Source of the DNA: Ceratodon purpureus
Taxonomy: Eukaryota; Streptophyta; Bryopsida; Pseudoditrichales; Ditrichaceae
Assembly (NCBI GenBank): GCA_014871385.1
Contig: CM026426.1
Coordinates: forward strand, 75,728,934 to 75,792,933
Direction: 5' to 3'
DNA: 64,000 nt
In this document: positions 42,282 to 62,100 of the stretch, in pieces
How positions within the stretch are numbered: the first letter of the stretch is position 1
Layout of the letters: each line of letters opens with the position of its first letter
Position numbers and translations under genes: made by a program
The notes under the pieces: model-generated
Told to the model about the DNA's origin: nothing
Databases searched by the model: none
The model's input: the letters and a program-made list of their open reading frames with translations, nothing else

Positions 42282-43306
42282 CTTGGTAATTTTTGTATTT
42301 TTTGAAAATTAAAAACCCCGCAAGCCTACTGTCGTCAACGACAGTAGGTCCAGGCCGGGGTGTTGGATTTAGGAATTTTGATTTAGTTTTAATTTTTAAT
42401 TTTTCAAGTTCCATGTTGTGTAAAGTCAATGCATGGTTGATAAAAGAATTTTAATTAAATTGTGAAAACTTTGTGGATTTTAGAGGATTTTCTTGGTAAT
42501 TTTTTTTTTTGAAAATTAAAAAACCCGCAAGCCTACTGTCGTCAACGACAGTAGGTCCAGGCCGGGGTGTTGGATTTAGGAATTTTGATTTAGTTTTAAT
42601 TTTCAATTTTTCAGGTTCCATGTTGTGTAAAGTCAATGCATGGTTGATAAAAGAATTTTAATTAAATTGTGAAAACTTTGTGGATTTTAGAGGATTTTCT
42701 TGGTAATTTTTTTTTTTGAAAATTAAAAAACCCGCAAGCCTACTGTCGTTAACGACAGTAGGTCCGGGGCACAGTGTTAAATTTGGGGATTTTGATTCAG
42801 TTATTTTTTTAAATTTTTTTGCTTCCATTTTGTGTAAAGTCAATGCATGGTTGATAAAATAATTTTAAATAATTGTGAATACTTTGTGGATTTTAGAGGA
42901 TTTTCTTGGTAATTTTTGTTTTTTTTGAAAATTAAAAACCCCGCAAGCCTACTGTCGTCAACGACAGTAGGTCCGCGGCGGGGTGTTGGATTTGGGGACT
43001 TTGACTTTGTTTTTTATTTTTTATTTTTTTTGGTTCCATTTTGTGTAAAGTCAATGCATGGTTGATAAAATAATTTTAATTAAATTGTGAAAACTTTGTG
43101 GATTTTAGGGGATTTTCTTGGTAATTTTTGTTTTTTTTGAAAATTAAAAAACCCGCAAGCCTACTGTCATCAACGACAGTAGGTCCGGGGCGGGTTGTTG
43201 GATTTGGAGATTTTGATTTTGTTTTTTTTTTTTTTTTTTTTTTTGGTTCTAGTTTGTGTAAAGTCAATGCATGGTTGCTAAAATAATTTTAATTAAATTG
43301 TGAAAA
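42282..43306 (+). repeat. about 210-bp satellite, block 1 (five monomers)
   Basis: Five monomers with core palindromes at about 42325, 42532, 42739, 42948 and 43160 (spacing 207-212 bp). Each has CTTGGTAATTTTTG, GAAAATTAAAAA, the hairpin CCTACTGTCG-4 nt-CGACAGTAGG, a GGGTGTTGGATTTGG segment, a T-rich part, GTAAAGTCAATGCATGG and TTTTAATTAAATTGTGAAAA. The block stops at ...TTGTGAAAA, exactly where block 2 resumes after the 15.8-kb element. Confidence 0.95.
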
Positions 43307-43335
43307 AAGGGATATTTAGGTAATTCTGAACAAAA
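43307..43335 (+). repeat. left terminal inverted repeat
   Basis: Begins AAGGGATATTTAGGTAATT and continues CTGAACAAAA. Against the reverse complement of 59077-59105 it matches at 25 of 29 positions. A 10-bp subterminal motif AATTCTGAAC (43322-43331) recurs inverted as GTCCAGAATT (43340-43349), a plausible pair of transposase-binding half sites. Confidence 0.85.
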
Positions 43336-43897
43336 AAAAGTCCAGAATTCAAAAATGACCAATGCGAACTCAGCGGACCGCCGATGGATGGAGACCACAG
43401 ATGAACAGTGTCATTGTACATGAATACCACAGAATATGGAATGCAAAACTGGACATCGAGATGTGCATGGGCGGAATTTGCGAGTGATGGATATATGAAC
43501 CCGAAGATTGCGACATATAATGCAGAATAAGAGTTACAATGAATACTTTAAAGAATATCATGTTGATTCAAGTAATGAAATGTACAATACAGAGTTGGCA
43601 ACCCGCCGATAATAGAACACGCTAAACTAACTAGTCCCGTAGCACTTTGAGTCATGAAGTCCTACAACATTAAGTCTACACCCACCACTATGTACCAAGT
43701 TGACGTAAATCCTATCACATTATAACCTACTCTGGGAACTATTTCCCTGAAAGCATAGCTGTAAGGTCAATGAGTAAATCATATATTTGAAGGCCGCACA
43801 AACGGGTCGACCAAATCGGCGGGCAGCCGATGGAAGGTGTTCTGTTGGTCAGGAAGAGGGAAGAAGTGCAAGTTGTAGGCGAAAAAGTCCGCTTAAC
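43336..43897. other. left subterminal non-coding region
   Basis: No gene. It holds two palindrome-B copies, one degenerate (43594-43610) and one nearly intact (43815-43831), the latter 67 bp downstream of the stop codon of the adjacent minus-strand gene. Confidence 0.6.
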
Positions 43898-44575
43898 TCA
43901 GTCCCAGCAAACTTCAGTCCAGTCCACTCGTGCACGTCCAAACTTTCTCGCAGCTTTAATTGCCCAGTGCACTTGCCCCGGCCTACACGCCTGCGCCATA
44001 TACTCCGGTACAGATCCGAACTTGTGCAAGGGATATATCAATGGCAGGATATCTGTAGCAACGTTAGGTATAACGCCGTCATCTTTCAAAAATTTCAGAT
44101 GACTTTGAAAAGGCCAAGGAATGTAGTACATACAGTTTGGTGTCCTCCTCAATGACCTCGGGTCAACATCCACAAATAGCACCTGATCTAGTTTGCAGAC
44201 GTTTCTAGACTGTACCTTGGAGCAAACTTGACCTAACGTCTTATAACTCCAGGGGAAATTCTCCCGGTCGATAAGGTCACTTCTGCTATACACGAAGGAC
44301 AGCCTCTCCATTACACCGGCCGGCAGAATATGTGTGAGTAAAGGCTTCAGTTCTCCCAAGGGCATCTTCGACCACAGACCAACATGGAAATGCAAGAAAA
44401 GCATGTCGAAAAGCTTCTTCAAACCTGGGCGCTTCACTACATTCCGATGCGTATCCCATAGCAAAGCCTCTATCCTGGGATCCACATAGCAGAGAAGGCC
44501 ATTGACGCATAGGACAATACATTTCTTGACATGATGAGGTGGACCGTGAAGGCATTTGAAATAAAACGAGGAACC
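43898..44575 (-). CDS. FCP1-like (NIF/HAD) protein C, catalytic residues lost
   Basis: After an acceptor (TTCTTCAG, exon start 44575) the frame reads KKCIVLCVNGLLCYVDPRIE, then RPGLKKLFDMLFLHFHVGLW, SFVYSRSDLIDRENFPWSYK and LDQVLFVDVDPRSLRRTPNC, ending VDWTEVCWD (TGA 43898). The layout is that of the FCP1/NIF phosphatase domain of the HAD superfamily, whose members dephosphorylate proteins such as the RNA polymerase II tail. Here the D-x-D-x-T motif has become CVNGLL (both Asp lost), and the acidic motif usually read as V-D-D-x-P is VDVDP. Catalysis is therefore unlikely; binding may remain. About 225 residues; the first exon is not found. It is the most decayed of three tandem paralogues. 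Confidence 0.7.
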   Translation of the reverse strand, partial: GSSFYFKCLHGPPHHVKKCIVLCVNGLLCYVDPRIEALLWDTHRNVVKRPGLKKLFDMLFLHFHVGLWSKMPLGELKPLLTHILPAGVMERLSFVYSRSDLIDRENFPWSYKTLGQVCSKVQSRNVCKLDQVLFVDVDPRSLRRTPNCMYYIPWPFQSHLKFLKDDGVIPNVATDILPLIYPLHKFGSVPEYMAQACRPGQVHWAIKAARKFGRARVDWTEVCWD

Positions 44576-44915
44576 CTGAAGAATATGAAATGCAATCAGT
44601 GAAGGAAATCAAGGAACAGGACGAAGTATATGAAAGAAATGGACTACATTCAAAGTCGTCGGCGACCCGCCGACAAAACGATGCATTGAAGAAACCTCAA
44701 AGGTAAATGTGCAGCAAGTGAAATGTCATGCATGCATCTACAAAAAGAAGTACCGAATTGCAGCACTGGAAACAAATGTGTGGTGCAGGGAAGTTCAGAA
44801 AGGGAACAGTCTTAGCGTATTAAACTAAAGAGTGCAGAGTATCATATGTGATTTTTAAAACTAGTGGCGCCGCTGATATAGGCTCTAATCAGTCGGCTGC
44901 CCGCCGATGATGGAA

Positions 44916-45983
44916 CTACCAGGGGCCTCCGGAGGACAAGGTAGAATTCACAAACCAAGATCCAGGATCACCCGGGATGTCAAACCCGCATGCATGAGAA
45001 GGAATAACCTCCCTATACTTCTGGTATTTGCGAGATCCTGGAAAAAGACGTGGCTTCCCCACGCTAGAATTCTTCCTACAATACTCCTGGACATCCAATC
45101 CAGACTGCTTAAGTCCTGCAAGGAATGGTGTAACTACCCTAGTTAAATAGGGATTGGGGGTGGGTTGAGGTTCTTTGCACTCTGCAGAGTCCCAGAAAAA
45201 AGAATTCGGATGAACAGCGCTAAATGGATGATTAAGTACATTCCTATAAGGGCGGTCGTCTACCAGTAGGGTATTCTGGACAGTGGCACCTGATCGAGCC
45301 AGTAGCCTAGTGTCGCAGAAAAGTCTATCCACACGCTTCAACAAGTACTCCCGTTTCCCATTCGGATTAGTCCTTGTTGAGATATCACACCAGAATCCTG
45401 GAAGGCGTCTGTAATTGCTCCTGAGCAAAGGATGAATGGCTAACAGCTTCTGGAAGTGACGATCGAGATTCTTTTCAGAAACAGTGGACCAAAAGACTAC
45501 CTCGAAATTCGCCGTGCAGAACTCTAAAAATGAAAGAAGTCCTGGTCTAGCCCGGATATGAATTTTTGTCTTCTGGTCATCACCGATATACCCGTGGTGC
45601 TCCGCGATGAGCAATCCCTTAATGTCAAGGACAAGGTAGTATCGTTGGAGAGGTACCTCAATATTACGCGCAATAATATCAGTGCTGACACTGACGGAAT
45701 CATCGCGCGGGGAACCGGTGCGCGGGATCGCGACGTTGGTCTCGACGAACGAGGTGGAAGCCATCGCACACCGGCCAGAGCTATGTGCAGCAGACAGCGT
45801 CGGCGGCCCGCCGACTGGATAGTCATACTCGTCCTCCCCATCACTTTCATTCTCGGCTTCCGCTCCCGGAGACTCTTCTCTGAGAGCATCACCACCAGGA
45901 GATGTTGGGTACTCCTCCAAGAGCATACTAAGAAGGGAAGGTCCCTGGTGCACTTCAATTTCAGCGTCATCCTCCAGTGACTC
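44916..45983 (-). CDS. FCP1-like (NIF/HAD) protein B with palindrome-encoded insert
   Basis: The exon starts at 45983 after a TTTTTCAG acceptor (ESLEDDAEIEVHQGPSL) and ends with TAG 44916. An acidic N-terminus contains VGGPPT, encoded by palindrome B at 45799-45815. The domain follows: YYLVLDIKGLLIAEHHG, RARPGLLSFLEFCTANFEVV with FWSTVSEKNLD, then YLLKRVDRLFCDTRLLARSG, NTLLVDDRPYRNVLNHPFSA, and a C-terminal AGLKQSGLDVQEYCRKN. D-x-D-x-T appears as DIKGLL: the nucleophile Asp is kept and the second Asp is Lys, close to the plant FCP1-like subgroup with D-L-N-G-L-L. VDD is intact. Activity is doubtful. Palindrome copies lie 8 bp beyond its stop and upstream. Confidence 0.75.
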   Translation of the reverse strand, partial: ESLEDDAEIEVHQGPSLLSMLLEEYPTSPGGDALREESPGAEAENESDGEDEYDYPVGGPPTLSAAHSSGRCAMASTSFVETNVAIPRTGSPRDDSVSVSTDIIARNIEVPLQRYYLVLDIKGLLIAEHHGYIGDDQKTKIHIRARPGLLSFLEFCTANFEVVFWSTVSEKNLDRHFQKLLAIHPLLRSNYRRLPGFWCDISTRTNPNGKREYLLKRVDRLFCDTRLLARSGATVQNTLLVDDRPYRNVLNHPFSAVHPNSFFWDSAECKEPQPTPNPYLTRVVTPFLAGLKQSGLDVQEYCRKNSSVGKPRLFPGSRKYQKYREVIPSHACGFDIPGDPGSWFVNSTLSSGGPW

Positions 45984-46240
45984 CTGAAAAATGAAGGACA
46001 AATTCCAAGAAAACATGGGTGATCAATCGCATGCTCACAATTCATACTTGCTCTAGTGTACAAATGGAGACACAATAAGACACCCACGACAGAATACACA
46101 GTCTCGACACTGAGTTCCATTCTCATATATTTAAAAGGAGGAAAACTTTATTTACTGAAAAAGTCTAAATACATGAAGATCCCATCGGCGGGCAGCCGAC
46201 TGAATCATGTGCATGCTCTCTAAAACAGTTTCTACATCTA

Positions 46241-47010
46241 CTATGTTCTCTTTCGTTTAGGGCAATCAATGTGTGGAGAGAAGAGACTATAAGCTTCATC
46301 CCCCGGAAACAGACGACACTGACCGAATTCGGAGTGTTTCTGGCAGTACTCGGGCACGGGGAGTTTGGATTCTTTCAAACTGGTAAGCCAAGGAATCAAT
46401 TCTCCAAGCAGATAATTCCTCTTATTTTCCGACTCCTTCGACTCGAACGTATATGGTGTAGGGTGCACAGCGTTCCAAGGAGTGTTTGCGACATTCTTAT
46501 AAGGGGAATCATCAACCAAGAGAGTGTTAATTGAAGACGCCCCCGTCCCCTTCAGCCCGTCATCGAGGTCAAAGAGGGTCTGGAGTCTCTTCAAATAAAA
46601 CTCCCTACTAGCCTTATGTACGCAAGTCTCGCAGAAACTCTGGTCGAACTTGTAGCGCACTTTGGCATCTAGACGAGGACAGCGCTGCTGCAACGCTGTC
46701 CACAGAATCTGGAACCTCTTTTTCTGAACGCAGCTCCAGAAGACCACCTCGAAATTGTCCAGGCAGAACTCTAGGAACCTCTCTAAACCCGGTCTAAGTT
46801 TAGTATTCCACCTAGTACCCTGCTTCGTCTCGACTAATAGCAGGCCGTTAATATCCAGAACCAGAAAGTACTTCAGCACTGGATCGTGTACCTGAGTACC
46901 AGCCTGTTCCGGGGCTATGTGAAGTGGATTCAGAGGTGGAGGTCCCTGCTCCAGAACTGCACTGGGTCTATCTTCGTGAAGTTTTCCATGGACTTCCTTG
47001 TCCGCGGACT
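46241..47010 (-). CDS. FCP1-like (NIF/HAD) protein A
   Basis: The exon begins near 47010 after TCTCTCCAG and ends CPKRKRT (TAG 46241). Domain: LKYFLVLDINGLLLVETKQG, KLRPGLERFLEFCLDNFEVV with FWSCVQKKRFQ, REFYLKRLQTLFDLDDGLKG, NTLLVDDSPYKNVANTPWNA, and SLKESKLPVPEYCQKHSEFG. D-x-D-x-T appears as DINGLL (second Asp replaced by Asn), as in the plant D-L-N-G-L-L subgroup, and VDD is intact, so it is the best preserved of the three. It is clearly paralogous to protein B along its whole length. A palindrome lies 41-57 bp beyond the stop (46184-46200). The upstream exon is unknown; A, B and C could also be exons of one transcript. Confidence 0.75.
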
Positions 47011-47242
47011 CTGGAGAGACAGAAAACGAAGCAGAGGACAAACGTGACGGTTAGGATGACGGTCGGCGGACAACCGACTTGCAAGCAACATTATTTGAAA
47101 AAAGGGAAAGCGTACAACTTGGCATTTACCGAAAATTTATTCATATTTGGCAGTACAAATATCTAACACAATCCTAGCGCCCGATCACTACACTAAATTA
47201 TCAATGTAGGCATTTAAAAGATGGACTGGGCCACCGCCTGAT

Positions 47243-50200
47243 TCACTGACCTCCACCTTTGTGCTTCTTCGGCCTAGGCTCCCGTTTGGATGCCCGCACA
47301 GGTGACAGAACGTCCTCTGGAGCGTCCACATTCCTGGGACTCATGAGCAGATCCCCAGATGTGCCCTGCTTGGAGGAAGTCTTCTTTGAAGCAGCCTTCC
47401 GTTTGCCCTTCCCAGAGGACTCCTCCCCTTCCTGAACCCCTGAGGAATCACGGGATAAGTTACCCACAAGAGAGGAATCCTGCGCAGTACCATCGGTCTT
47501 ACTTCTCTTCATTGATCGTGTCTTAACCAGAGGGTTCTCATCCGGGCCAATCATCCGAGTTGCGCCCTTCACACCTTGAGTGACGAATGCGATTGACTTC
47601 CCTGTCAACTTGGTCTTGGCAGAGGGGTTAGATGAGGTTTGCTCGTCTGCCGTCGGCTGCCCGCCGACGGCAGCAGGAGGATCATGCCCTTCAATGCTCA
47701 CTGCAGGCTCCTGGGTTGGCTTCTAGACACGGAGAACCACTTCATCGTCAGGCCTCGATGCTAGAGGAACCTGCATCTTCTTTGGACGCCCCGCCTGGTC
47801 TAAATCACGTTCTGGCTCGGCGGGAGGAGTCTCCTGCTCTTGAAATGTAGGAGAAATAATACCGAAGCTGAGGGAGTCAGTTCCGGTCTCCCGTAGAACT
47901 TGCGACAGCGGTGGGTTCACGTAACGAGGATTCGATTCTTCCAGTGGTAATACGTCGGGTTCTGGTTCATAGTCTAAGTCCTCCGTGTCTCGCTCCTCTA
48001 CCTCTGCATCTCCAGTTGGAATGAAAGCCTCAGCTTGGTCGTCCTCGTTTCTTGGCTGTTCCTCAGCATCTCTAGCTTCATCTTCAACGTCTGGGTCGGG
48101 TACATCTGGTGGCTCCTCGTCGACATCGTCGTCGGAGTCCAGATAACTCTGTGAGCGAACCCCCGCAGTCTTCCCCGAACCCATACATCCACCCTTCCCG
48201 ACCAAATGGGCCTCCTCCGCATTCACACCTTAGTCGGCAGCCGTGAGAGTGCCAGTCCTGCCTCTAGCAGAGGCGGGGACAGACGGCCAGGCCCCAGACT
48301 GCGTGGTCTGAACTGGAGCTTGGACGGGCACGTTATAAACGCCCGGAATGAACGTCATATTCCGAACCCGATAGTGCGCTTCGTATCTCTCTTCCTCGGT
48401 ACGCACGATCTCAATTACAGTCAAATGGTTTTTCTGCAGCAGAACAAGACGAAACGGATAAGGAAATCTTCTACCCAAGAAACACGAAGGATTCAATCAG
48501 CGTCGGCTGCCCGCCCACGATCGGTGAGCAAACAGCGAAGGCACCAGAAGAGACTGCAGTAACTTACCAGAGCGAGGGCCGTGACGTTCCCCCCTCCCCA
48601 GCAATTGATCACCCGAACGTCCTCAATCTGCATCGCTTTCTCCAGAAGAGATTGGAGGAAAGAGTAACTAGCGTGGCAGTGTCCATTTGACCAATCCTCC
48701 CCAAGATGATCTTCTCCTTCGTCCACATAGGGAGGAAGCGGACATTTCAAACCAGTGAAGTCCGAGAAGGTATTCCATGCATCCCCGGGCGTTGTTCTTG
48801 GATACATAACGGACACATGAACCTTGGGTCTAGAGTCAATGAGAGAACTCCTTTGAAACCCGGCGGAACTATCAGGGAAGTACTGCATAGTATGAACCGT
48901 CCACGAATTACTCGTCAGCCTTGACACGCCTTGAAGAGTGTGATTACACTCAGCATCGAGTAGCCACAAGGATGGGGTGACAAGCTTATTCACCTTAATT
49001 GTATCTACCTCCCCATCCAGAATGACCTCCTCCTCCACCTCACGGTGAATCCTCTCAGCGACAGTTATAACGTGTTGTTGTCGCATGTTAGGCATCTCCT
49101 TTCCCGCTGGATCGTAGCCAAAGACCACGAACATCTCATACTGCGCCTTGTTGAAGGAGAATGCTCCGCGAACGTCAAGAGCTGTGCACACTTCACCCAG
49201 GTCCTGTGCAATCCGGGCATCGAACTGAACAGACGACTGCGAAGACTGGTCCACATCCGACTTCCAGTACTTTTGCACAATGTCTTTGAAGAATTCTGGT
49301 GTTGGCCCGTGCGACGGCGTGAGCGGATGATTCCGTCCCTTAAGCCACTCCTTCCCCTCAGGACTATCTTCCAAGTCAGCCCGAATATTACTAATCATTG
49401 TATCATTGAACCCCTTCTCGACTTCAAGGGAATTCCAGTCATCCATGCTCCACTCAATATGCTTCCCAGTCCCTGGTTTCTTCAGTGCAAAGCCCCTGTA
49501 AATACACATGAGCTCGTTTCGGACAACATACTCGTATTTCACATGCTTACACCAATTCTCCAATGATGATCCATCCCGTTGAACCACCTCTTTCCCAGTG
49601 ACCTTGACGTACACTTTAAGGTCCAGAATTTCCTTGGCCAGCCTCTTGCATTCGTGGTCCCGAAGACCGATCACGTACTGCATGTCGTTGAGTGTTATGT
49701 CCCGGCGGGCTGGCTTTGGGGGAAATCCTGGTTTCAAACCGTCCTCCCCGATGATCCTCCCCTCCTCCCAGGCGTCGAACACCAGTTGCCACTCGTTGTA
49801 TGTTTCGTCAGACACGAAGACTAAGGGCAGCTTGAAGGTTTGGGACGTAGGGGACTTTCCGAGAATCGGACTGAGGTACTCCTTGCAGAACTCCTGCAAG
49901 GAAGAAGAAAATGACATTGATAAATAAATCCCACTTCTACAATACGGAGAACCACTTGAGCGTCGGCGGTCCGCCGACGACTTTCAACTACATGTAAACA
50001 ACAGGAAAAGAGGAAGATGTGAATTACCTTCCATGCGCTGAAGTCATCTTTCTTGTCGATCCTCCCCCGCTCGATCCATTTGGCGCGCATCTTCGCCAGC
50101 TGGGACCTGAAACTTACTTCGGCGACTTTATCCTTCACCTCGATGTTTAATGCGTAAGAGACCTTAATGAGGGTATCCTTGTTATCAGCATATACAGGAA

Positions 50201-51413
50201 TGATATCGTGGTTAAGGTAATACTGCCGCATAGGAGAGTCCAGTGGTTCCTTCTCTCCCAGTTCTCGACAAGCCTCAAACGTGTGCTGGCCCCCAATTAT
50301 GTACCAATGGATGAGCTCATCTTCATACCAAGGTACCAGCTTAGATGTGCCGTCATCCAGTGTAAGTGAATACTTGACATTTAGGGCTGGCAGAGGTCGA
50401 AGAAGTCCTTCCAAGCCTTTAAGCTTAATCTCGCCCGTCACTGGATCCTTTACTCCGGGGTCACCACTCATAGGAAGGCAGTACAGCTCGGGCTTCTTCC
50501 GGATTGCTCCAAGTCCTTTGTAGAAAAGACTTATCTGATCCTGCCTCTTCCTGAATATCGCTCTGTACTTAAATTCGTCGGGAGCTATGTGTATCCTGTT
50601 ATATGGAATCTGACAAGGAAGGGCACGTTGCCCATTGGGGAAGCAGTGCCCAAGTCCCTCCTCCAACGTCTGGTACATGGCAAGGACGTCGGTGTCCTTT
50701 GTTTTGGAAGTGAGATTGTTTGCGAGCATGAGAGCTTCCGCCACGGTCTGCTTTTTCTCTTCCTTCTTCCCACCTTTCTTCTTCCCACCCTCGCCCTCAG
50801 CAGCCGCTGCCTTTCCCTTCTTCCTTCTCGATGACTCCCCTGTCGTCTGTGTCTCTCCGGTCTCGGGGGTGACTGTACCAGTGCCCGCTTCTACAGCAGA
50901 CTTGCGGCCGCCTCTTTTCTTTGCTGAAGGCTTAACTGAGTTCTTCGTCTTCTCTTCCATCACTTTGTCCCCGAGCGTATCAATCACGTCGAGTATCTGT
51001 TCAACAGCTATGTTCTCGCCCCTGCCCCAAGTAGCCGCATCCTGTACTTCTTTAGAGCACAAGCCATCCATGCACTTCTCAACCGGAATTACAACCGCAA
51101 AGCAGTCCACTGGTATGCCCTCCGCGACAAGAACCGATGCAAATACCAAGCACACGTTGTCGTTATCCTCGCATTCCCTGGCTCCAATAATCTCAAATCT
51201 TGGTCCACCTGCCATTTGCTTCTGACCTATTTTGGTCACGAAGCCCAGTGACGTGGGAGTGTCACGCCAGGTGATGCCCCACTCCGTTATCTTCGAATCA
51301 GCGAGGAATGTCACCCTCGGTTTCAAGCCGCGTGCTTGTATTCTTCCTTCAGGATCAACAACCTTGTCACAGAGCCATCGTAACCCATTTGGTTTTGCGG
51401 TGGGGTCGACCAT
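47243..51413 (-). CDS. ParB-like / DNA methyltransferase fusion gene 2
   Basis: Exons: 51413-50028, 49893-48568, 48433-47243; both introns are 134 bp, GT-AG, phase 0. N-terminus MVDPTAKPNGLRWLCDKVVD; a Lys/Gly-rich linker near residues 190-220; then a ParB-like block, LIHWYIIGGQHTFEACREL with IIPVYADNKDTLIKVSYALN, at about residues 365-410 (G-G-Q-H in place of G-x-x-R). The C-terminal part has VHVSVMYPRTTPGDAWNTFS, then SFLQSLLEKAMQIEDVRVIN and CWGGGNVTALAL joined by splicing to KNHLTVIEIVRTEEERYEAH. This parallels motifs I and II of gene 1 (LDLTAGVGS...GRHILAMEED) and fits a beta-class methyltransferase order. The last exon stays open through TAA (48232-48230) and TAG (47725-47723) for about 330 further codons of acidic then Lys/Ser-rich tail, including palindrome-encoded VGGQPT, to TGA 47243. 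Catalytic motif IV is not canonical. Confidence 0.6.
48434..48567 (-). other. intron with palindrome B, 134 bp
   Basis: Donor CTG|GTAAGTT and acceptor TGCTGCAG|AAA on the minus strand; phase 0. Palindrome copy 48502-48518 (one arm altered, GCCCAC) starts 49 bases after the donor, the same offset as in the other intron of this gene. Confidence 0.75.
49894..50027 (-). other. intron with palindrome B, 134 bp
   Basis: Donor AAG|GTAATTC and acceptor TTCCTTGCAG|GAG on the minus strand; phase 0. Palindrome copy 49962-49978 begins 49 bases from the donor. Length and palindrome offset equal those of intron 48434-48567. Confidence 0.8.
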
Positions 51414-51462
51414 CGCCCTGCAAAATTAGAATCACAAGATTGGACCATCAGATTCTCACTCC

Positions 51463-51924
51463 ATCGGCGGACAGCCGACGGGGGGAATAACCCATGTGAG
51501 AAAATAGAAAAATGAAGGACTTAGAAAGGGGTGGCGTCGGCGGTCAGCCGACGGGAGGAACAACCCCATGCGAGAGAACACAAAACATGAAGGGCAAAAG
51601 AAGGGGTGGCGTCGGCGGTCAGCCGACGGGAGGATCAACCCCATGCGAGAGAACACAAAACATGAAGGGCAAAAGAAGGGGTGGCGTCGGCGGACAGCCG
51701 ACGCCACGGGACAAACCCATGCGAGAAAACAGAAACATGAAGGACAAAAGAAGGAGTGGCGTCGGCGGACAGCCGACGGGAGGGACAAACCCATGCGAGA
51801 AAACAGAAACATGAAGGACAAAAGGAGGAGTGGCGTCGGCGGACAGCCGACGGGAGGGACAAACCCATGCGAGAGAACAGGATCATGAAGGACTCAAGAA
51901 GGGGAGCGTCGGCGGACAGCCGAC
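51463..51924 (+). repeat. 75-bp tandem array with palindrome B in every unit
   Basis: Seven palindrome copies at 51463, 51536, 51611, 51686, 51761, 51835 and 51908, spaced 73-75 bp. The unit reads palindrome, GGGAGGGACAAACCCATGCG, AGAGAACA, CATGAAGGACAAAAGAAGG, GGTGGC. It starts 50 bp upstream of the ATG of the ParB-methyltransferase gene, in the promoter region shared with the divergent DUF7869 gene. In layout it resembles an iteron or parS cluster beside a ParB gene. Confidence 0.95.
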
Positions 51925-52965
51925 TTGACAACTTACCCACTCTCGGAGGCTGCCATAACGTCGGCGGATGGCCTTTCACCGTCGGCGGATGACCTTTGAA
52001 CAGCAGCCGACGCGCGCAGGTGAAGGAGCCGACGCCCTCAACCCTAGCAGCCGACGCAGAAAAACCTAGCAGCCGACGCGACATTTGCGGAGCGCTGAGA
52101 AGAGGACAAAAGAGAGCTGAAAAAGAGAAGGCTGGAAATGAGGAGGAAATGTCGGGGGTGGCGGGTGTATACCCTGCAGACCCACACCTCCCGAGACTGA
52201 ATCGTCACGCCCGATGGATCATGACGTATGGCTATGTACATACCATCCATGCATGGATGGTCATCCCTAACATCCGTCCCATCACGCCACGTAGAATGAT
52301 GATGGGACGTCTTTTGACCTTTTTTCAATCCGTCACCAAGTCATGATGGCGTGGGCATGTGATGTGACAGCTGCTCCAATCGCCACGTTCAAATTCGTAA
52401 TAATGAACTAACATTGTTGTGTGACGGCGGGGGTATCTCGCCGCCATGATGGGATCTTGATCTGTCCAAGGCGCGCAAAATTGAATTCGATTCTGGCGCC
52501 AATTTGTACTCCTGGGAATTCATAACTAACCCCCCGTCAGATGCGCATACTTCATTCTATTTCTGTCATTGCACTTTCGATTCCCTCTGAGAGTGCTCCT
52601 GACGCACACGTTTCTTGAGAGGACCGTTATTATTCCCGCATGTGCTTAACTGTCCCGCACCTTCTGTTGCCGTTTCTGTTGTCTTCGTCTATCGTTTCTG
52701 ATTGGACGGTTGAGAGGAGTCTCTGATTGGACAGGTTAGGGACAGCATACTGCTTCTCAACTAAGGTCCCCTACAATTTCTGTCGGCGGACGTGGCCGTC
52801 ATCGTCGGCGGATGCTATTTCTGTGCACACTCCGAGTCGTACGATCCGCGTCGGCTGCCCGCCGAGTCGTCTTCGTTGTCGGCGGATACATTTTACTCCG
52901 TCGGCAAGGACACATCCCGTCGACCCTGTCGGCTGTCCGCCGACGAGGTCTTCATCTTTTATCCA
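51925..52965. promoter_or_regulatory. divergent promoter region of ParB-methyltransferase and DUF7869 genes
   Basis: About 1 kb lies between the iterated array and the DUF7869 ATG at 52966. It has palindrome half sites (51961, 51981, 52783, 52803) and full copies at 52850 and 52928 in the 5' leader of the plus-strand gene. The frame is open from 52792 upstream of ATG 52966, but this stretch is mostly palindromes, so I place the start at 52966. No clear TATA box was assigned. Confidence 0.5.
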
Positions 52966-55900
52966 ATGGAAGTAGAGCCGATCCAGACGTTTCTAAGGAA
53001 TGGCCGATCAGGGCGGTGGAAGGTTAAAAAGGGCGTTGTCGTGGCCCTTACTCATTCTGGGCTCTATTATGCAGGCAGGGCAGTGATCCAACGTGTTGTA
53101 GAATTTGATCCTATAGTGGTGGTGGTAAAAGTGATTGAGGTTTCAGACAGCATGGAAATGAATATACCATTTCCGGATGAGGGTGTGAAGTCCTTGAGCA
53201 ACTGCTTAGGACAAATGATATTGTGGGAGGCGGCCGACCTCAGGCCTTTCGGAGAGGTGGAAGACGATGACATCAACGCCGTCGGCTGCCCGCCGACGGA
53301 TGTTGAAGAAGATGTCAAGCCCGTTCAAGAATTCCTGGACCTCGCAGAGCAGATGGAAGTTGCGCTCCTCGAGGAATCCGGAGGCTCAAAGCGTTGTGTA
53401 GCCGCTGGAGTCATTTTGGAGTGCTCTCCTAAGGGAACGTGGGAGGGGTTCTTGATTCCTCACAGCTTCTTTTCAATAGTGAGAGTGTCGTCCGTCAATC
53501 CAGAATTCTCTGAAACACCTGCTTTCTACGAGTTACCGGATGTGTTAACGATCGGGTGTGCTGTGGGGCGATTGGTACTTTGGAGTGGATACAAGGTATG
53601 TCCACTTGTGAACGGCGCGTTGGCTGGCACATGTCCCGTCGGCTGCCCGCCGACGGAACCTCACTTGGGGAACGACAATGAAGAAATTGATGAAAGCAAC
53701 TCCGCTCCGTCTGAGCAGGATCTGGGGACTAGGTCTCCAATGAATATCAGCAGTGACGACGATGTGTCTAAACAAGGGGAATCCGACGTAGAAACAGATG
53801 ATCATTGTTGGGGTCCGGATTCCGGGACCTCGGGTACTCCTTCTACTCCAGATGCTCCTTATCCTGACCGCCACCTCTGGAGAAATCGGTATGTCGAACT
53901 TCTTAATGATGACCTATCAGTCCGTGGTAGAGCAATGATTCAAGTATGTTTACCGGACAAGGCATGTGATGATGAAGTCCTAGGAGATACAGAGGTTGGG
54001 GTTCTCTTCGTCTCTGAAGACGATCATCTGCAGATGACAACTCTCAGATGGCGTCTGACTCACACTCGGTTAGAAGGGGGTCACCTTCTCTCTGATATAA
54101 TTACTTACTGCTCCGAGAATTTAGCAGACGCCGACGCGGACGATGGTCTGGATGGTGTCCCGAAGAATGCCTATCGATCGGTGCGGAGGAAAGTTCGCGA
54201 AAAAGATGACGTCTCTTCCACTAAGCTTCGTCGAATGGTTGTCCCTGCTGAATGCCGCTTAGTGAGCTCAAAGCGCTGTTGCAAGGACCGATGTTGCCAG
54301 ACTTTTAGATGGGAAGATACTGTGAGTATTCGGCGTAAATTTTACGCAACAACATTCCAGGCGAGGCGAGAGATGTCCTTCGCTGTGCAAGGGCACTTAC
54401 ATACTGTACCCGGCAAGCGGAAGCTCTATGTTACTCTTGCGAACGTTGACGTATGTGAAGTGGCGTGGTATATCATTCACGGAGTATCGAAATCCGCGTA
54501 CTACAGCTACAAGGCTTCGGCCCGAAGTGGTCGTGTCAATGGGAGTCACGGAAATTCCGGTGTACATCGTCCCCAGATTCACACAATCCAGGCCCGCGCG
54601 ACGTTGACCACTATCGTTAATGAGAATGCCGACCAAATGCCCAATGAGTTTCGGATGATTGGCAAGAAGAGAGTGGCCGCGCTCAAAGTACTCCCGTCTG
54701 CGATGAACTGGAATCACATGCGCGAAATGGCCAACGCCGTAAGTTCCTCCTCATCTTCTTTCACTTTGGATAGTTTACTGAATTGTAGTGATTACTATCG
54801 TCGGCTGCCCGCCGACTGGATGACGAACTTCCCAACTGATCGACCTCACTCTGTGCTATTCAGGTCAATGAGCAGTGCAACGCGAAGCTGATTTCGCAGT
54901 CCTCCGTTAGTCGCATGAGGAAGGAGTACTTCCGCAACGTTGAGGTCAAGGCAGTAGGAAGTAATTTCTCCAAGTGCACTGAGTGTGACTTCCTCGTTGA
55001 ACTCATTGCCAAGTATCCAAGAGGGTCGGACGAGTGGCAGAGCTTGACAGAGGATAGGACCAGGCATTTGAACTATCAGCGAGCTTGTCGCAACATTTAT
55101 TACGGATGGACAACCCAATCTATACAGAGTCCTACTAAGTTCCTATGCATCATACATGATAAGATGGACACATCGAAAACAGCGATCCCCCGCATGCAAC
55201 GTATCACGAAGGCTACGGCAGGGCTTGGTCAAATTCCGATTTCCTGTACTGGAATGCTGACTCACGGTCACGGAGATGGCGCCTACGCACACTATGCAAC
55301 TGCCCTGTGGCCAGGAGACCCAAATTTCACAATCTCCTCGTTGTGCAGGGTATTCCGTGCCTTGGAGAGACTACCTGTCCGGGAGTCAAAAGCACTCTTC
55401 GAGGCACCGCCACAGAATGAATTCTTTGCAGCGCTAATGCATGGATCGTCACGTTGCATCCCCTCAATTCCACCTTCTAGAGATGAGCCACTCACTCCAC
55501 CTCTGCCTGGTAGGCCTGCTGTTCCTTTGCCGAAGAAGTTGTATCTCCAGCTTGACAATTCTGCGAAGGACAACAAGAACCGGTTTCTTCTAGCATTCTG
55601 CTCGTTGCTGACGGCGAGGCGAATATTCAAGGAAGTTACAGTTGGTTTCCTGATTGTGGGACACACACATGAGGACATCGACGCCCACTTCAGTCACCTG
55701 TCGAAACTCATTAAGCGAAAGAACACATACTGCCTTGCCGACCTTATGAAGGCATTCATGGATTCTCACAAGACAGTTGCCTTTATTCCAGAGGTTGTTC
55801 AGGAAGTGGCAGACTTCAAAAGTTATGTTGCTGATTTTCATCACGACGGAGGTAATGCGATAGAAGGTCACAGTGAAATGCATCTTTTTAAGTTCTATGT

Positions 55901-56877
55901 AGTGGAGGATGGGGAGGATGCGGGGTGGCCCGTGATGAGGTACAAGAAGCGTGCAACTGATCCGTCATGGCTTCCACCTGGCAAACCCGTGAAAATGTGG
56001 AGGGCAGACAAAGAGGGTAAACCACGTTTGCCCGTCGGTGATCCCAAACCGGTTCCTCATAAGCACTTATGGGGTAGTGTTGAAGTCGATGAGGGCAAGA
56101 AGAACGCGGATAAAGAGGTGGCAAGGGCAGCGGAGTGTTCAGAGAAGAGAAATTTCATTAAAAGTGGATTATCTAAGTACATTGAGTATTGGAGAACTGG
56201 CATGGCTCGGGATAAGAAATACGCACAAGACATGTTACCATATGTACTGTATTGGGAGCGAATTTTAAAGGAGGTCAACGAGCCACTGCCCCCCAATTCC
56301 GCCACCTTACAGGAAGGATTCTGGCCTATCTCAGACTGGAAGCGGGACCACGTCACCACATTCGATGCAGAGGACGAATATATACCGGATCCGGATATTC
56401 GTCCCGGTGACGAGGATGAGGTGGAGCCCTATCCTTTCTGTGGTCCGAAAAACTCTAGGCCGAAGTCTGTGTTTAACTCATATCGTGACGTTTTACGTGG
56501 CGATTGGGTTTTCTGTCGTCCGTGTAAGGAAGACCACCTACCCATTTGGATGGGTAGGGCGATAGAGCCTGTTATAATAGAGCCTGGTCCTAATTACGGT
56601 AAGTTCAAGGTTGAATGGTGGACTCCGATGAAGGGCAAGAAGGAAGGTAAGAAGAAGGTTGCGAGAGAGTGCTGGACAAGACGGTAGGAAAGGGAGTTGA
56701 CTCTTGCGGAGTGGGTGGAGTGTAAATCCGTTGTATACACTCATAGGACCAAGAAAACTACGCATGAGGGGCCCCCAAAGTCCCATCTAATACCCGAAGA
56801 TGTTGTGATTGCTGCCATGGCAAACTTTGAATCGCATGGAATCTCTATGAACTGGAATGACGAGGAGGAAGACTAGT
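52966..56877 (+). CDS. DUF7869-family putative transposase
   Basis: Exons 52966-54738 and 54864 onward; the intron 54739-54863 (125 bp, GTAAGT...TTCAG, phase 0) holds a palindrome at 54800. N-terminus MEVEPIQTFLRNGRSGRWKV; two in-frame palindromes give VGCPPT at 53281 and 53638; then a Cys-rich segment (CRLVSSKRCCKDRCCQTFRW). The C-terminal half has the DUF7869 signature: KLYLQLDNSAKDNKNRFLLA, LLTARRIFKEVTVGFLIVGH and THEDIDAHFSHLSKLIKR. The L-D-N-x-x-x-x-N-K-N and V-G-H-T-H-E-D-I-D blocks hold the conserved acidic residues of an RNase H-like, DDE-type fold (family knowledge; the role as transposase is inferred). A TAG at 56685-56687 interrupts; the same frame stays open 62 codons (ELTLAEWVECKSVVYTHRT to NWNDEEED) to TAG 56875-56877, directly before palindrome 56876. 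About 1,198 residues to the first stop. It is divergent from the ParB-methyltransferase gene and the only transposase candidate inside the TIRs. Confidence 0.75.
54739..54863 (+). other. intron with palindrome B, 125 bp
   Basis: GCC|GTAAGTTCC donor, CTATTCAG|GTC acceptor; phase 0, joining the two DUF7869 reading frames exactly. The palindrome copy 54800-54816 is near its middle. Confidence 0.85.
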
Positions 56878-57526
56878 CGGCTGCCCGCCGACGATTGTGA
56901 TCTTAGCTGTAGAAGATGTAGCTAGTGATGGTTTCCTCTGTAAACGTTATAGTTGAATATTGTAAACACTGTGATTCCTTCGAATAAGAATTGTATTCTA
57001 CCGTAGACCCAATACTAGTCATGTATTACGCTTTGTCTTCTATTTGTTGTTCTGATGCCTTAGTTTTCCTTCTTCGGTGGTCGTCGGCTGTCCGCCGATG
57101 CCTCTAACCATGTTAGATAAGCATCATGAACGGTGACTTTGTGAGGCTGGTCTATATTGTATGGCCTGTGATTTTTACGGTGGACACTGTTACTCTAGTC
57201 GGCTGCCCGCCGACGCTTTCCACAACATTTGTAGAACCACTATGCGCTTTGAGAAACTGGGAAAAAATATTTATCCATTTCATTATATTCTTATCGGAGT
57301 ACAACGGTAGTGTTCCGCCCTTTACATGTTACTTTGTATTGTGTATACATCAGAGATGCCACTACTCCTAAAGCCTCAGTAACAAATGCTAACCATGAAT
57401 TCTACAACTATCCGAGTGTGTGAAGCAGCTCTATTGAAAACGAGCTGGACAATTCTAACACACACTAATTCACCCTAAAGCCAAAAAACCAAAAAGCTGC
57501 ATATGGTCGCCAACGCCATGAAGCGA
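56878..57526. other. non-coding interval with palindromes
   Basis: No gene; palindrome copies at 56876, 57083 and 57198. It lies between the 3' ends of two convergent genes, so it probably holds both 3' ends. Confidence 0.6.
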
Positions 57527-58048
57527 TCAGTCCTTCGCAGTAGACTTGGCTCGGACAACACTACACCCAGTATCGACGGATGGATGCACGGATCCAAACG
57601 ACGAATACGTGGACTGCGGGCTTGCGTTCCCTCCGCACCACTGATCTTGGCCAGAGCACCGACTTCCAGCACCCTCCAAGATGTCGTATGCTTCGTCAAC
57701 AAGGCGGAGCCACCCTGCAGTTGACATGGTTTGCGTTGACACTTCCCCTGTGTGGCTGAAGTGAACACTGCCAACACTCCCGGACTCCTCGGACTCCTCG
57801 GACTCCTCGAACGTCAGTGGGAAGGCGATGCCGGAAGCGTCAGAGATCTCCAACAACTCAATGCTGTGAGCAATACTCCAAAACCACTGCGCACCTGGCT
57901 GCAGAAGGCGTGGGATGTATTTGAAAGCTGGAATGGCGGTATTGCGAGAACGGGCGACCACCGCCCTATACCATGGCCGGAGCTCCTCGAGGTTAGCCGG
58001 TGTCTCCCGACCAAATGGTCGCTCCACATTGCTACCCCGCCTCCCCAT
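57527..58048 (-). CDS. hypothetical 173-residue protein
   Basis: Starts MGRRGSNVERPFGRETPANL, has WYRAVVARSRNTAIPAFKYI and LQPGAQWFWSIAHSIELLEI, a short EESEESEES repeat encoded by CTCGGACTC units (57780-57808), then AGWLRLVDEAYDILEGAG, ending AKSTAKD (stop 57527). Composition is protein-like over its length. No family is recognised. It lies inside the TIR element at its right end, convergent with DUF7869. Confidence 0.4.
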   Translation of the reverse strand: MGRRGSNVERPFGRETPANLEELRPWYRAVVARSRNTAIPAFKYIPRLLQPGAQWFWSIAHSIELLEISDASGIAFPLTFEESEESEESGSVGSVHFSHTGEVSTQTMSTAGWLRLVDEAYDILEGAGSRCSGQDQWCGGNASPQSTYSSFGSVHPSVDTGCSVVRAKSTAKD

Positions 58049-58074
58049 AACGACAAAATATTGGACAATATGCG

Positions 58075-58134
58075 ACTAACTTCTACAGTATGCGACATGC
58101 TTCTACAGTATGCGACCTTCTTCTACAGTAGACA
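58075..58134 (+). repeat. short tandem repeat, about 24 bp x 3
   Basis: Three units of CTTCTACAGTATGCGAC type, the last running into a palindrome-B half site (CAGCCGAC near 58132). Confidence 0.6.
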
Positions 58135-58220
58135 GCCGACGAGTTCGTCTAGTAAACTGGTAAACGTTCTAGTAATCCACTTCTCTAGGGTTTTCTGGAC
58201 GACTAATTGCCAACGTTGAC

Positions 58221-58520
58221 CTAGTCTAGTAGCCCCTACTCCCCTACTCGGCTGGTAGCCGACTAGGACTAGCCTACTCATCATTTGCATCATTAGGACT
58301 AGGACTTATTTACTCATCATTAGGACTAGTAGCCCCTACTCTCCTACTCGGCTGGTAGCCGACTAGGACTAGCTTACTCATCATTTGCATCATTAGGACT
58401 AGGACTTATTTACTCATCATTAGGACTAGTAGCCCCTACTCTCCTACTCGGTTGGTAGCCGACTAGGACTAGCTTACTTATCATTTTTATCACTAGGACT
58501 AGGACTTATTTCCTCATCAT
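58221..58520 (+). repeat. 100-bp tandem repeat, three copies
   Basis: Exactly 100-bp spacing of CTACTCGGCTGGTAGCCGAC (58245, 58345, 58445; the third has GGTTGG), with GACTAGGACTAGC and CTCATCATT between. Each unit holds an imperfect hairpin, CGGCTGGTAGCCG, that looks like a shortened form of palindrome B. Confidence 0.9.
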
Positions 58521-58809
58521 TTTTATATGTATTTCAAATTCCAGAGGTCGGTTCAGTGAGGAAGAGGTTGGCTCTCCTAGTCGGCGGCCAGCTGACTACA
58601 AAGGACTTCCATTCGTTGTGACCGTGAATACTGTTCATTCTAAACGACGACTCCGGAGTCCTCACAGACGGACACCCCAATGTGAGATGCCTGGCAGTCG
58701 TGTCCACTCAGCGGGTCGCCGACGATCTTCTCTTCACCCGCTTCACTTCACAGATCCACATTTTGCAGAGCAAGTATTTCCTTTTATTAAAACAGATAGA
58801 TTTCTAAGG

Positions 58810-58867
58810 ATAGGGTTTCTAGGGTTTAGGGTTTCCTAGGGATTAGGGTTTCCAGGGTTTAGGGTTC
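58810..58867 (+). repeat. degenerate TTTAGGG telomere-type repeats
   Basis: Mixed TAGGGTTT, CTAGGGTTTAGGGTTT and ATTAGGGTTT units over about 58 bp, on the strand shown as AGGGTTT. This is the plant-type telomere repeat, here interstitial and degenerate. It lies about 240 bp inside the right end of the TIR element. Confidence 0.8.
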
Positions 58868-59076
58868 TCAGTCAGCCACTCGCCGAGAGATTCGACCATG
58901 ACAGTGGGACTGGGATGTCCTCTATTCAACATTATAATAAATTCACTCAAATGATTTTATCCCTTGTAAATGAATTGCATTTTTTCATAAATATTTGACA
59001 TCTTTGTCTTTAAATTTGAGGGATAACACATGAATTGGACGTCTACTGATGATGCAAAGTAGTCCATAATTGAGCG

Positions 59077-59105
59077 TTTTGTCCATAATTACTTAAATAC
59101 CCCTT
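59077..59105 (-). repeat. right terminal inverted repeat
   Basis: Reverse complement begins AAGGGGTATTTAAGTAATT, then ATGGACAAAA, matching the left end at 25 of 29 positions. The subterminal motif GTCCATAATT occurs twice in direct orientation (59062-59071 and 59081-59090), matching the pair at the left end, which is inverted. Confidence 0.85.
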
Positions 59106-62100
59106 AAAACTTTGTGGATTTTAGAGGATTTTCTTGGTAATTTTTGTTTTTTTCGAAAATTAAAAAAACCCGGAAGCCTTTTGTCGTCAACGACAGTAGG
59201 TCCGGGGCGGGGTGTTGGATTTGGGGACTTTGACTTTGTTTTTTATTTTTAATCTTTTGGTTCCATTTTGTATAAAGTCAATGCATGGTTGACAAAATAA
59301 TTTTAATTAAATTGTGAAAATTTTGTAGATTTTAGGGGATTTTCTTGGTAATTTTTGTTTTTTTTGAAAATTAAAAAACCCGCAAGCCTACTGTCGTCAA
59401 TGACAGTAGGTTTGGGGCACGGTGTTGGATTTGGAGATTTTGATTTTGTTTTATATTTTTTAATACTTTTTTGGTTCCATTTTGTATAAAGTCAATGCAT
59501 GGTTGATAAAATAATTTTAATTAAATTGTGAAAACTTTGTGGATTTTAGAGTATTTTCTTGGTAATTTTTGTTTTTCTTGAAGATTTAATAACCGGCAAG
59601 CCTACTTTCGTCAACGACAGTAGGTCCGGGGCAGGGTGGAGGGTTGGGGGATTTTGATTTTGTTTTTTTTTTTTCAATCTTTTTGCTTCCATTTTGTGTA
59701 AAGTCAATGCATGGTAGATAAAATAATTTTAATTAAATTGTGAAAACTTTGTGAATTTTAGAGGATTTTCTTGGTAATTTTTGTTTTTTTCAAAAATTGA
59801 AAAAACCCGCAAGCCTTTTGTCGTCAACGACAGTAGGTCCGGGGCGGGGTGTTGGATTTGGGGACTTTGACTTTGTTTTTTATTTTTTATCTTTTGGTTC
59901 CATTTTGTGTAAAGTCAATGCATGGTTGATAAAATAATTTTAATTAAATTGTGAAAATTTTGTGGATTTTGGGGGATTTTCTTGGTAATTTTTGTTTTTT
60001 TTGAAAATTAAAAAACCCGCGAGCCTACTGTCGTCAATGACAGTGGGTATGGGGCACGGTGTTGGATTTGGAGATTTTGATTTTGTTTAATATTTTTTAA
60101 TACTTTTTTGGTTCCATTTTGTGTAAAGTCAATGCATGGTTGATAAAATAATTTTAATTAAATTGTGAAAACTTTGTGGATTTTAGAGTATTTTCTTCGT
60201 AATTTTTGTTTTTCTTGAAAATTAAAAAACCCCCAAGCCTATTAACGTCAAGGACTGTAGGTCCGGGGCGGGGTGTTGGATTTGAGAACTTTGATTTTGT
60301 GTATTTTCATTTTTATTTTTTTGGTTCCATTTTGTGTACCGTCAATGCATGGTTGATAAAATAATTTTAATTAAATTGTGAAAACTTTGTGGATTTTAGA
60401 GGTATTTCTTGGTAATTTTTCTTTTTTTTGAAAATTAAAAAAATCCACAAGCCTACTGTCGTCAAGGACAGTAGGTACGAGGCGGAGTGTTGGATTTGGG
60501 GATTTTTATTTTGTTTTTTTTTTTAAATTTTTTGGTTCCATTTTGTGTAAAGTCAATGCATGGTTGATAAAAGAATTTTAATTAAATTGTGAAAACTTTT
60601 TAGATTTTAGACGATTCTCTTGGTAATTTTTGTTTTTTTTTAAAATTAAAAAACCCGCAAGCCTACTGTCATCAACGACAGTAGGTCCGGGGCGGGTTGT
60701 TGGATTTGGGGACTTTGACTTTGTTTTTTATTTTTAATCTTTTGGTTCCATTTTGTGTAAAGTCAATGCATGGTTGATAAAATAATTTTAATTAAATTGT
60801 GAAAACTTTGTCTATTTTAGACGATTCTCTTAATAATTTTTGGTTTTTTTAAAAATTAAAAAACCCCGCAAGCCTACTGTCCTCAACGACAGTAGGTTCG
60901 GGGCGGGTTGTTGAATTTGGGGACTTTGACTTTGTTTTTTACTTTTTTATTTTTTTGGTTTCATTTTGTCTAAAGTCAGTGCATGGTTGATAAAATAATT
61001 TTAATAAAATTGTGAAAACTTTGGGGATTTTAGAGGATTTTCTTGGTAATTTTTGTTTTTCTTGAAAATTAAAAAACCCGCAAGCCTACTATCGTTAGCG
61101 ACAGTAGGTCCGGGGCGGGGTGTTGGATATGGGGATTTTGATTTTGTTTTTTATTTTAAAATTTCTTGGTTCCATTTTGTGTAAAGTCAATGCATGGTTG
61201 ATGAAATATTTTTAAGTAAATTGTGAAACTTTGTGAATTTTAGAGGATTTTCTTGGTAATTTTTGTTTTTCTTGAAAATTAAAAAACCCCCAAGCCTACT
61301 GTCGTCTACGACACTAGGTCCGGGGCGGGGTGTTGGATTTTGGGACTTTGACTTTGTTTTTTTTGTTTTTCAATATTTTTGGTTCCATTGTGTGTAAAGT
61401 CAATGCATGGTTGATAAAATAATTTTAATTAAATTGTGAAAACTTTGTGGATTTTAGACGATTCTCTTGGTAATTTTTGTTTTTCTTGAAAATTAAAAAA
61501 CTCGCAAGCCTATTAACGTCAAGGACAGTAGGTCCGGGGCACGGTGTTGGATTATTTAGATTTTGATTTTGTTTTTTATTTTTTAAAACTTTTTTGGTTC
61601 CATTTTGTGTAAAGTCAATGCACGGTTGATAAAATAATTTTAATTAAATTGTGAAAACTTTGTCGATTTTAGACGATTCTCTTGGTAATTTTTGGTTTTT
61701 TTTGAAAATTAGAAAACCCGCACGCCTACTGTTGTCAACGACAATAGGTCTGGGGCAGGGTGTTGGATTTGGGGATTTTGATTTTGTTTTTTTCTTTCAA
61801 TCTTTTTGGTTCCAATTTGTGTAAAGTCAATGCATGGTAAATAAAATAATTTTAATTAAATTGTGAATACTTTGTGAATTTTAGACGATTCTCTTGGTAA
61901 TTTTTGGTTTTTTTTGAAAATTAGAAAACCCGCACGCCTACTGTTGTCAACGACAATAGGTCTGGGGCAGGGTGTTGGATTTGGGGATTTTGATTTTGTT
62001 TTTTTCTTTCAATCTTTTTGGTTCCAATTTGTGTAAAGTCAATGCATGGTAAATAAAATAATTTTAATTAAATTGTGAATACTTTGTGAATTTTAGAGGA

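Follow-up and report, generated by a model that had tools for sequence, protein, structure and literature searches.

Bacterial ParB proteins bind palindromes, the parS site being a palindrome present in several copies, and one phage protein combines ParB and methyltransferase domains. Among transposons, the closest described system is Sola1-1_Ec32 of Ectocarpus (21.5 kb), which carries a ParB and DNA-methyltransferase gene opposite its transposase; such proteins have been proposed to bind and modify their own element, and the accessible part of that account names no target site for this self-binding of large-transposon proteins (PMC12477816). Here we describe an insert of 15,799 bp (positions 43307–59105) in a satellite of the moss Ceratodon purpureus, lying in a window of 64,000 nucleotides, i.e. 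the whole stretch of DNA analysed (75.73–75.79 Mb of contig C6, itself 110.5 Mb long, in an assembly of 362 Mb). Like Sola1-1_Ec32, known to us by description only, it exceeds 15 kb and has a ParB and DNA-methyltransferase-like gene on the strand opposite the likely transposase, a DUF7869 protein; the accessible description of Sola1-1_Ec32, in contrast to the element described here, includes neither NIF-domain genes nor a family of palindromes (PMC12477816). An earlier reading made from the DNA letters alone (hereafter the sequence-only reading) had known of no described superfamily with this gene set, a statement overtaken by the Ectocarpus element, so that the gene set itself is not new. What does appear to be new, judging from sequence, is a family of 17-bp palindromes that forms a candidate self-binding site, and we found no report of such a motif in giant or Sola transposons in the accessible parts of the open-licence literature. 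Our preferred interpretation, to which we assign a probability of roughly 0.6, is a recently multiplied giant Sola1-type transposon whose palindromes are bound by an element-encoded protein.

The insert is a complete DNA transposon of the terminal inverted repeat class, as the sequence-only reading had concluded, with inverted ends, 4-bp target duplications and dispersed copies. Its boundaries comprise the following features:

43303..43306, no strand: left target-site duplication AAAA, also compatible with the satellite's own A-run (4-bp duplications occur at other copies)
43307..43335, + strand: left terminal inverted repeat, starting AAGGGATATTTAGGTAATT (25/29 against the right end; 1 mismatch in 10/10 other copies)
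59077..59105, − strand: right terminal inverted repeat (0–1 mismatch in 9/10 other copies)
59106..59109, no strand: right target-site duplication AAAA (flank comparison)

The element splits a single satellite monomer at 43306/59106, both ends lying where they had been placed from sequence alone. The monomer is about 211 bp long, and the satellite starts at 42282 in the window and resumes after the insert within one monomer. Joined with a single AAAA, the flanks form a normal monomer that aligns to 26 other places (206–211 columns, 87–93% identity), and TTGTGAAAACTTTG is the reading at 16 of the 26 monomer junctions listed. As the target is an A-run, the window alone leaves the length of the duplication unfixed. 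The ends read AAGGG...CCCTT and match as inverted repeats at 25 of 29 positions, the same count as obtained earlier, while no other reverse-complement position in the window exceeds 19/29. Degenerate plant telomere-like repeats (TTTAGGG type) occur at 58804–58866, some 240–300 bp inside the right end, and a 100-bp tandem array (three copies, 58226–58521) near the same end holds weaker palindromes. The satellite monomer contains a palindrome of its own, CTACTGTCGTCAACGACAGTAG (window 42282–43306 and 59106–64000), and satellite stretches about 1,486 bp apart show an ungapped likeness of 0.66 against about 0.5 at the other offsets tried, a possible sign of a higher-order repeat made up of seven monomers.

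A search of the genome with the first 594 bases of the insert gave 244 candidates. Scores were obtained for 40 of them, one being the window's own copy, and the left end was at least 97% identical at all 40. Contig C6, which, judging from its size, we take to be a possible sex chromosome of Ceratodon, carries 14 of these 40; since it accounts for 30% of the assembly, copies are not strongly enriched on it. Both ends were compared in ten other copies, all taken from plus-strand matches. The right end was present in nine (total lengths 15,523–15,818 bp, at unrelated sites); the tenth copy lacked it within the 4 kb taken and was dropped from later comparisons. Other loci sharing both ends, proposed earlier as a check on the transposon, are therefore common. 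Exact 4-bp target duplications flanked five of the nine copies (TACA, AATA, AGTT, TTAC and TTGT), and a sixth showed AACA once its right end was moved by one base; together with the window's AAAA, the target duplication is 4 bp and mostly AT-rich. Over aligned bases, the nine copies were 96.0–98.3% identical to the window copy.

The likely transposase is encoded in two coding parts:

53215..54738, + strand: DUF7869 gene, N-terminal coding part (tblastn against annotated proteins; two in-frame palindromes read VGCPPT)
54864..56873, + strand: DUF7869 gene, main exon, likely DDD transposase (PF25273; in-frame stop at 56685–56687 in the window copy)

PF25273 matched the main exon with an E-value of 3.7e-44 and is the sole Pfam domain in that protein. 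The exon is 98.9% identical to a 653-aa protein, its closest named records being two Ceratodon purpureus proteins, and the N-terminal part aligns with annotated Ceratodon and Physcomitrium proteins. Four acidic positions are conserved among 59 DUF7869 relatives (D82 in 47/47, D85 in 49/50, D214 in 57/57 and D254 in 59/59 ungapped rows), and their spacings resemble those of DDE/D enzymes. Pairwise over ten copies, the ratio of non-synonymous to synonymous polymorphism (pN/pS) was 0.27 for the main exon and 0.39 for the N-terminal part. These domain, residue and polymorphism data support the earlier suggestion that DUF7869 is likely the element's transposase. The further expectation that the gene would be present in each copy held in that the main exon aligned at full length in all nine others, but it was free of in-frame stops in only four of the ten copies; indeed, each of the seven coding stretches examined across ten copies has both open and interrupted frames. 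Comparison of DUF7869 with solved structures gave no match, and the family is not named anywhere in the open-licence literature searched.

Sola1 elements make a 4-bp target duplication and Sola transposases are of the DDD type. Published values for the Sola superfamily agree with the duplication found here, 4-bp AT-rich target duplications being described for Sola2 (PMC3627910), and the table of a plant review has an entry 'Physcomitrella Sola1' (PMC9033089). At 15.8 kb the present element is far longer than curated bivalve Sola1 elements, which average 5,445 bp (PMC10294476). On the strength of the Ectocarpus gene set, the Physcomitrella entry and the Sola2 duplications we take DUF7869 as a Sola1-type transposase, and a giant Sola1 is the most likely placement of the element. 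Elements of the CACTA/EnSpm type have subterminal repeats, in which a short motif recurs many times within the element; the present element resembles them in its many internal copies, but its motif spans the whole element, and CACTA/EnSpm is rejected since it needs CAC..GTG ends and a 3-bp duplication where we found AAGGG..CCCTT and 4 bp. Kyakuja-Dileera-Zisupton elements are likewise transposons bearing a DNA-methylation-editing gene (TET/JBP), with 7- or 8-bp duplications (PMC12730594). They are rejected on the 4-bp duplication and the lack of a Kyakuja-Dileera-Zisupton transposase domain, PF25273 standing alone in the protein. A Polinton-like reading was also discarded, as ends, duplications or domains do not fit.

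The palindromes are distributed along the element as follows:

43594..58723, no strand: the 17-bp palindrome GTCGGCNGNCNGCCGAC, with its variants, at 30 sites (motif search, shuffle control), starting at 43594, 43815, 44658, 44892, 45799, 46184, 47062, 47652, 48502, 49962, 51463, 51536, 51611, 51686, 51761, 51835, 51908, 52850, 52928, 53281, 53638, 54800, 56876, 57083, 57198, 58247, 58347, 58447, 58580 and 58707
51464..51924, no strand: tandem array of 75-bp units, each containing one palindrome; it lies between the ParB-like and DUF7869 genes, which diverge from each other

Sites with up to four mismatches to GTCGGCTGCCCGCCGAC numbered 30 in the insert and none in the other 48 kb of the window, so the confinement noticed in the sequence-only reading is complete within the window (30/30), and each of 20 Markov shuffles of the insert contained 0–1 site. 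The nine other copies had 27–31 palindromes each, against a single site in their combined flanking DNA (some 2 kb to either side of each copy, about 36 kb altogether), and all 21 non-tandem sites persist in 9/9 copies. An exact-match search of the genome for the self-complementary pattern GTCGGCNGNCNGCCGAC gave 2,531 sites (reversed control, 0); among the first 50 listed, 49 fall in three clusters of 12.6–13.7 kb, two of which lie inside element copies already found, and one stands alone. When 23 sites were aligned (the 30 with tandem repeats thinned), the motif had sharp limits at 17 bp, extended symmetrically by one weak base per side (17–19 bp), no shared sequence being found in the flanks beyond it; G8 was kept in 19/23 sites and C10 in 23/23. 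The palindromes run through introns, spacers and less conserved exons, seven of them in or beside the 75-bp array between the divergent genes, and none of the 30 falls in four exons that we picked as conserved for this test and that occupy 31% of the length (probability under random placement 1.4e-5 for 30 sites, 1.8e-4 for 23).

CpG diversity was compared among ten element copies. Its mean in noncoding palindrome arms was 0.010 (100 positions) against 0.042 at other noncoding CpG bases (486 positions), and noncoding CpG bases 4–25 bp from palindromes averaged 0.069 (58 positions). None of 5,000 permutations against the noncoding CpG background reached the arm value. The difference persisted without the window copy, on which the sites had been defined (0.011 against 0.048), and outside palindromes, CpGs set in CCGA or TCGG, as in the arms, had a diversity of 0.048 (88 positions; 0/10,000 permutations). 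Noncoding palindrome CpGs thus seem to be kept from their usual decay, be it through an unmethylated state that follows from occupancy or through selection, and such well-kept CpGs suggest self-marking by a DNA-binding protein that the element itself encodes.

The first candidate for this protein is the product of the gene that diverges from the transposase gene:

50028..51413, − strand: ParB-methyltransferase-like gene, exon 1 (gene model; ParB-like motif YIIGGQHTFEA, motif only)
48568..49893, − strand: exon 2 (gene model; motif-I-like VINCWGGGNVTALAL at its end)
48229..48433, − strand: exon 3 (gene model; closed by a stop, beyond which tail frames, acidic and basic, reach 47243)

The ParB-methyltransferase gene named in the sequence-only reading stands in part: ParB-like and methylase-like motifs are there and the parallel with Ectocarpus makes the identity plausible, but Pfam and profile support is lacking. 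Among ten copies, pN/pS was 0.57 for exon 1 and 0.53 for exon 2. Comparison of exon 1 with solved structures gave no match. Three leads were set aside: a single phage tblastn match of the ParB-like protein (E-value 3) and the matches of the methylase-like C-terminal piece to solved structures (just designed ankyrin repeats, E-value 0.054 or worse) were taken as chance, and a viral-contig scan with exon 2 gave one pattern match that was not confirmed as a relative.

A second palindrome family, missed by the sequence-only reading, lies elsewhere in the window together with a gene of the same kind:

22684..34422, no strand: TGGCGCCGGCGCCA, a second palindrome family that is unrelated to the first and has 11 sites, all outside the element described above
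25429..31312, + strand: second ParB-methyltransferase-like gene (ParB-like motif VWDGNHRALAW in 25821–26216; methylase motifs in 30081–30491 and 30935–31312)

With up to three mismatches, all 11 window sites of TGGCGCCGGCGCCA lie within these limits, against 0–1 in 30 shuffles; a looser 16-bp search added weak matches at 15904, 28304 and 52023. A scan in 4-kb blocks outside the element and the satellite detected this one family of at least three members and a two-copy match near 32.2 kb. The methylase part of the second gene matched PF01555 with an E-value of 6.2e-4 for the last frame alone and 1.1e-5 for two frames that we joined (26.0 bits, cut-off 26.7). In the phage profile test this methylase part reached 13.2%, against at most 0.8% in 20 shuffles, and the ParB part was not distinct; the ParB-like parts of the two genes did not match each other. 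The boundaries of a second element were sought in the window and not found, and DUF7869 was in none of the ten frames scanned around the second family, the nearest transposase found being of the tnp2 type. Pieces of such a CACTA/tnp2-type transposase occur at 11962–16359 on the + strand (Transposase_21, DUF4218, and DUF4216 below its cut-off).

Palindromes were also detected beside a more distant DUF7869 gene. A contig of 4.3 kb, recorded as cyanobacterial but probably a eukaryotic contaminant of a metagenome bin (locus L001, 34–4296), encodes a DUF7869 protein of 34% identity in a 947-aa reading frame. It has its own 21-bp palindrome TTTAGCTCGASTCGAGCTAAA, with 12 sites at up to seven mismatches (mean 0.41, maximum 3, in 100 shuffles), none of them inside that frame; with no motif preset, its largest palindrome family had five members, against 0–1 in 10 shuffles. 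Scans of two further loci gave no palindrome family in L002 and palindromes just in a short tandem array at the end of L003, and a viral-contig scan with the transposase of L001 gave no pattern match. Peptides that would be translated palindromes numbered 15 among 120 of 208 DUF7869 proteins (shuffle mean 1.35, maximum 5), a count to be read with the patterns having been written after some of the proteins were seen, four of the 15 looking like chance by context and four coming from two Ceratodon proteins. In Physcomitrium-like copies, known from translations only, YRRSAD lies in the same intron as the window's 54800 site, and the variants YQQSAD and YWRSAD there are compatible with CpG decay.

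In the mechanism that we propose, the DUF7869 protein would cut and join the AAGGG...CCCTT ends in a cut-and-paste reaction that leaves a 4-bp duplication, while an element-encoded DNA-binding protein, the ParB-methyltransferase-like product in the first place, would bind the palindromes as a dimer. Bound palindromes could then mark or shield the DNA of the element from host CpG methylation, gather the long element for transposition or, as a further option, control the expression of the element. We infer the ParB-like product to be the best candidate reader because ParB binds palindromes, because self-binding has already been proposed in print and because a second such gene occurs with its own palindrome family.

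Several observations weigh against this interpretation. The permutations of CpG diversity treat positions as independent, though they come from 21 sites, and the non-CpG bases of noncoding arms show no extra conservation (0.0245, background 0.0219). When coding sites are included, arm CpG diversity rises to 0.0162 over 121 positions, from which it follows that the 21 coding positions average about 0.046, like the background. The ParB-methyltransferase-like protein of the element had no Pfam match at E-values up to 1, neither to ParB_N nor to N6/N4 methylases; a multi-copy palindromic site is shared with ParB-parS and the phage ParB-methyltransferase, but the protein lacks significant sequence similarity to them. 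A phage ParB profile did align at the expected motif, scoring no better than on shuffles, a weak test because one of the six phage pieces in the profile (the second Microcystis frame) does not look like ParB. Protein searches with a 971-aa joined query found no homologues, which does not show their absence since the length filter excludes single-exon frames; the first of these searches was also probably swamped by lysine-rich words. Locus L001 has palindromes of its own and no ParB-like gene in its 4.3 kb. Three of the nine copies show no matching 4-bp target duplication. Finally, the placement in Sola1 draws on published descriptions of Sola elements.

As the main rival, the palindromes may be sites for the transposase itself, through its Cys-rich N-terminal part, or for a host factor, in a CACTA-like manner, the ParB-like gene being unrelated cargo. 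We consider this unlikely, yet L001 fits it, with a different palindrome family and no ParB-like gene in view, as does the position of the outermost palindromes, 287 and 382 bp from the two ends. It accounts less well for palindromes that span the whole element and not just its ends, or for a second family that surrounds a ParB-methyltransferase-like gene with no DUF7869 in the frames scanned there. Action of the palindromes in RNA as hairpins (6-bp stem, 5-nt loop), e.g. in splicing or export of transcripts, is improbable: sites in introns and probable untranslated stretches, with arms complementary by sequence, would suit it, whereas G8 and C10, which would lie in the loop, are conserved as in a DNA palindrome, the spacer that separates the divergent genes holds seven sites, and a CpG-specific effect is unexpected for RNA hairpins. 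Palindromic elements of Rickettsia or of Volvox organelles offer the model for another explanation that we rate as low, namely selfish mini-repeats spreading inside the element. In-frame sites in less conserved exons, their absence from the four conserved exons and coding-site CpGs that are not specially conserved would all agree with it, but mini-repeats explain neither the lack of shared flanking sequence past 17–19 bp, nor the little variation of noncoding CpGs among copies, nor the persistence of all 21 non-tandem sites. Viral integration, or a chimaeric join made when the satellite was assembled, has a negligible chance, though the large size and prokaryote-like motifs might speak for it. 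The inverted ends, the duplicated 4-bp targets and the many copies elsewhere, at sites unrelated to one another, rule out the join, and the same dispersed copies and duplications rule out the viral origin; the Pfam scans that were run detected no viral hallmark domain, and a pattern scan of viral contigs gave 59 stretches, none confirmed as a relative.

The remaining reading frames of the element are the following:

43898..44485, − strand: NIF/FCP1-like domain gene 3 (PF03031, 24.0 bits, cut-off 21.8; CVNG at the place of motif I, just upstream)
44916..46016, − strand: NIF/FCP1-like domain gene 2 (PF03031, 36.7 bits; DIKG at the place of motif I; one in-frame palindrome)
46241..47041, − strand: NIF/FCP1-like domain gene 1 (PF03031, 50.6 bits; DING at the place of motif I)
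57527..58048, − strand: 173-aa reading frame (no Pfam match; pN/pS 0.73)

All three FCP1-like genes of the sequence-only reading were confirmed, their NIF domain exceeding Pfam's cut-off in 3/3. FCP1/NIF phosphatases have the catalytic motif DxDx(T/V), which, by eye, is absent from all three at the place that reads DING, DIKG or CVNG. Among ten copies, pN/pS was 0.45, 0.76 and 0.25 for NIF genes 1, 2 and 3 respectively. The frame of gene 3 is open in 9/10 copies, and the stretch of gene 2 is one base shorter in the nine other copies than in the window copy. The 173-aa frame is doubtful as a gene in view of its pN/pS. Values below 0.6 were obtained for both long ParB-like exons, for NIF genes 1 and 3 and for the transposase. 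Given the low divergence among copies, a few per cent, and the constraint on several genes, we conclude that the family was mobile in recent times and that it probably benefits from the genes it has added.

For the DUF7869 family these results provide a likely transposase role, with ends and target duplications attached. For the proposed self-binding of large transposons the element supplies a candidate target site that is sharply bounded, has 2,531 exact copies in the genome and is nearly absent outside the element in the stretches checked, and the CpG footprint of the palindromes can be tested directly against methylation maps of a culturable moss. A bolder and more tentative idea, with the odds somewhat against it, is a private address code, in which each family of giant plant transposons would scatter its own palindrome along its full extent. 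The palindrome would be read only by the family's own ParB-methyltransferase, which would occupy it and keep the element marked or unmethylated in the face of host silencing. If true, ParB-parS of bacteria, or self-modification, would have a counterpart carried by transposons, and the two unrelated palindrome families of the window, each with its own ParB-methyltransferase-like gene, would represent two such codes.

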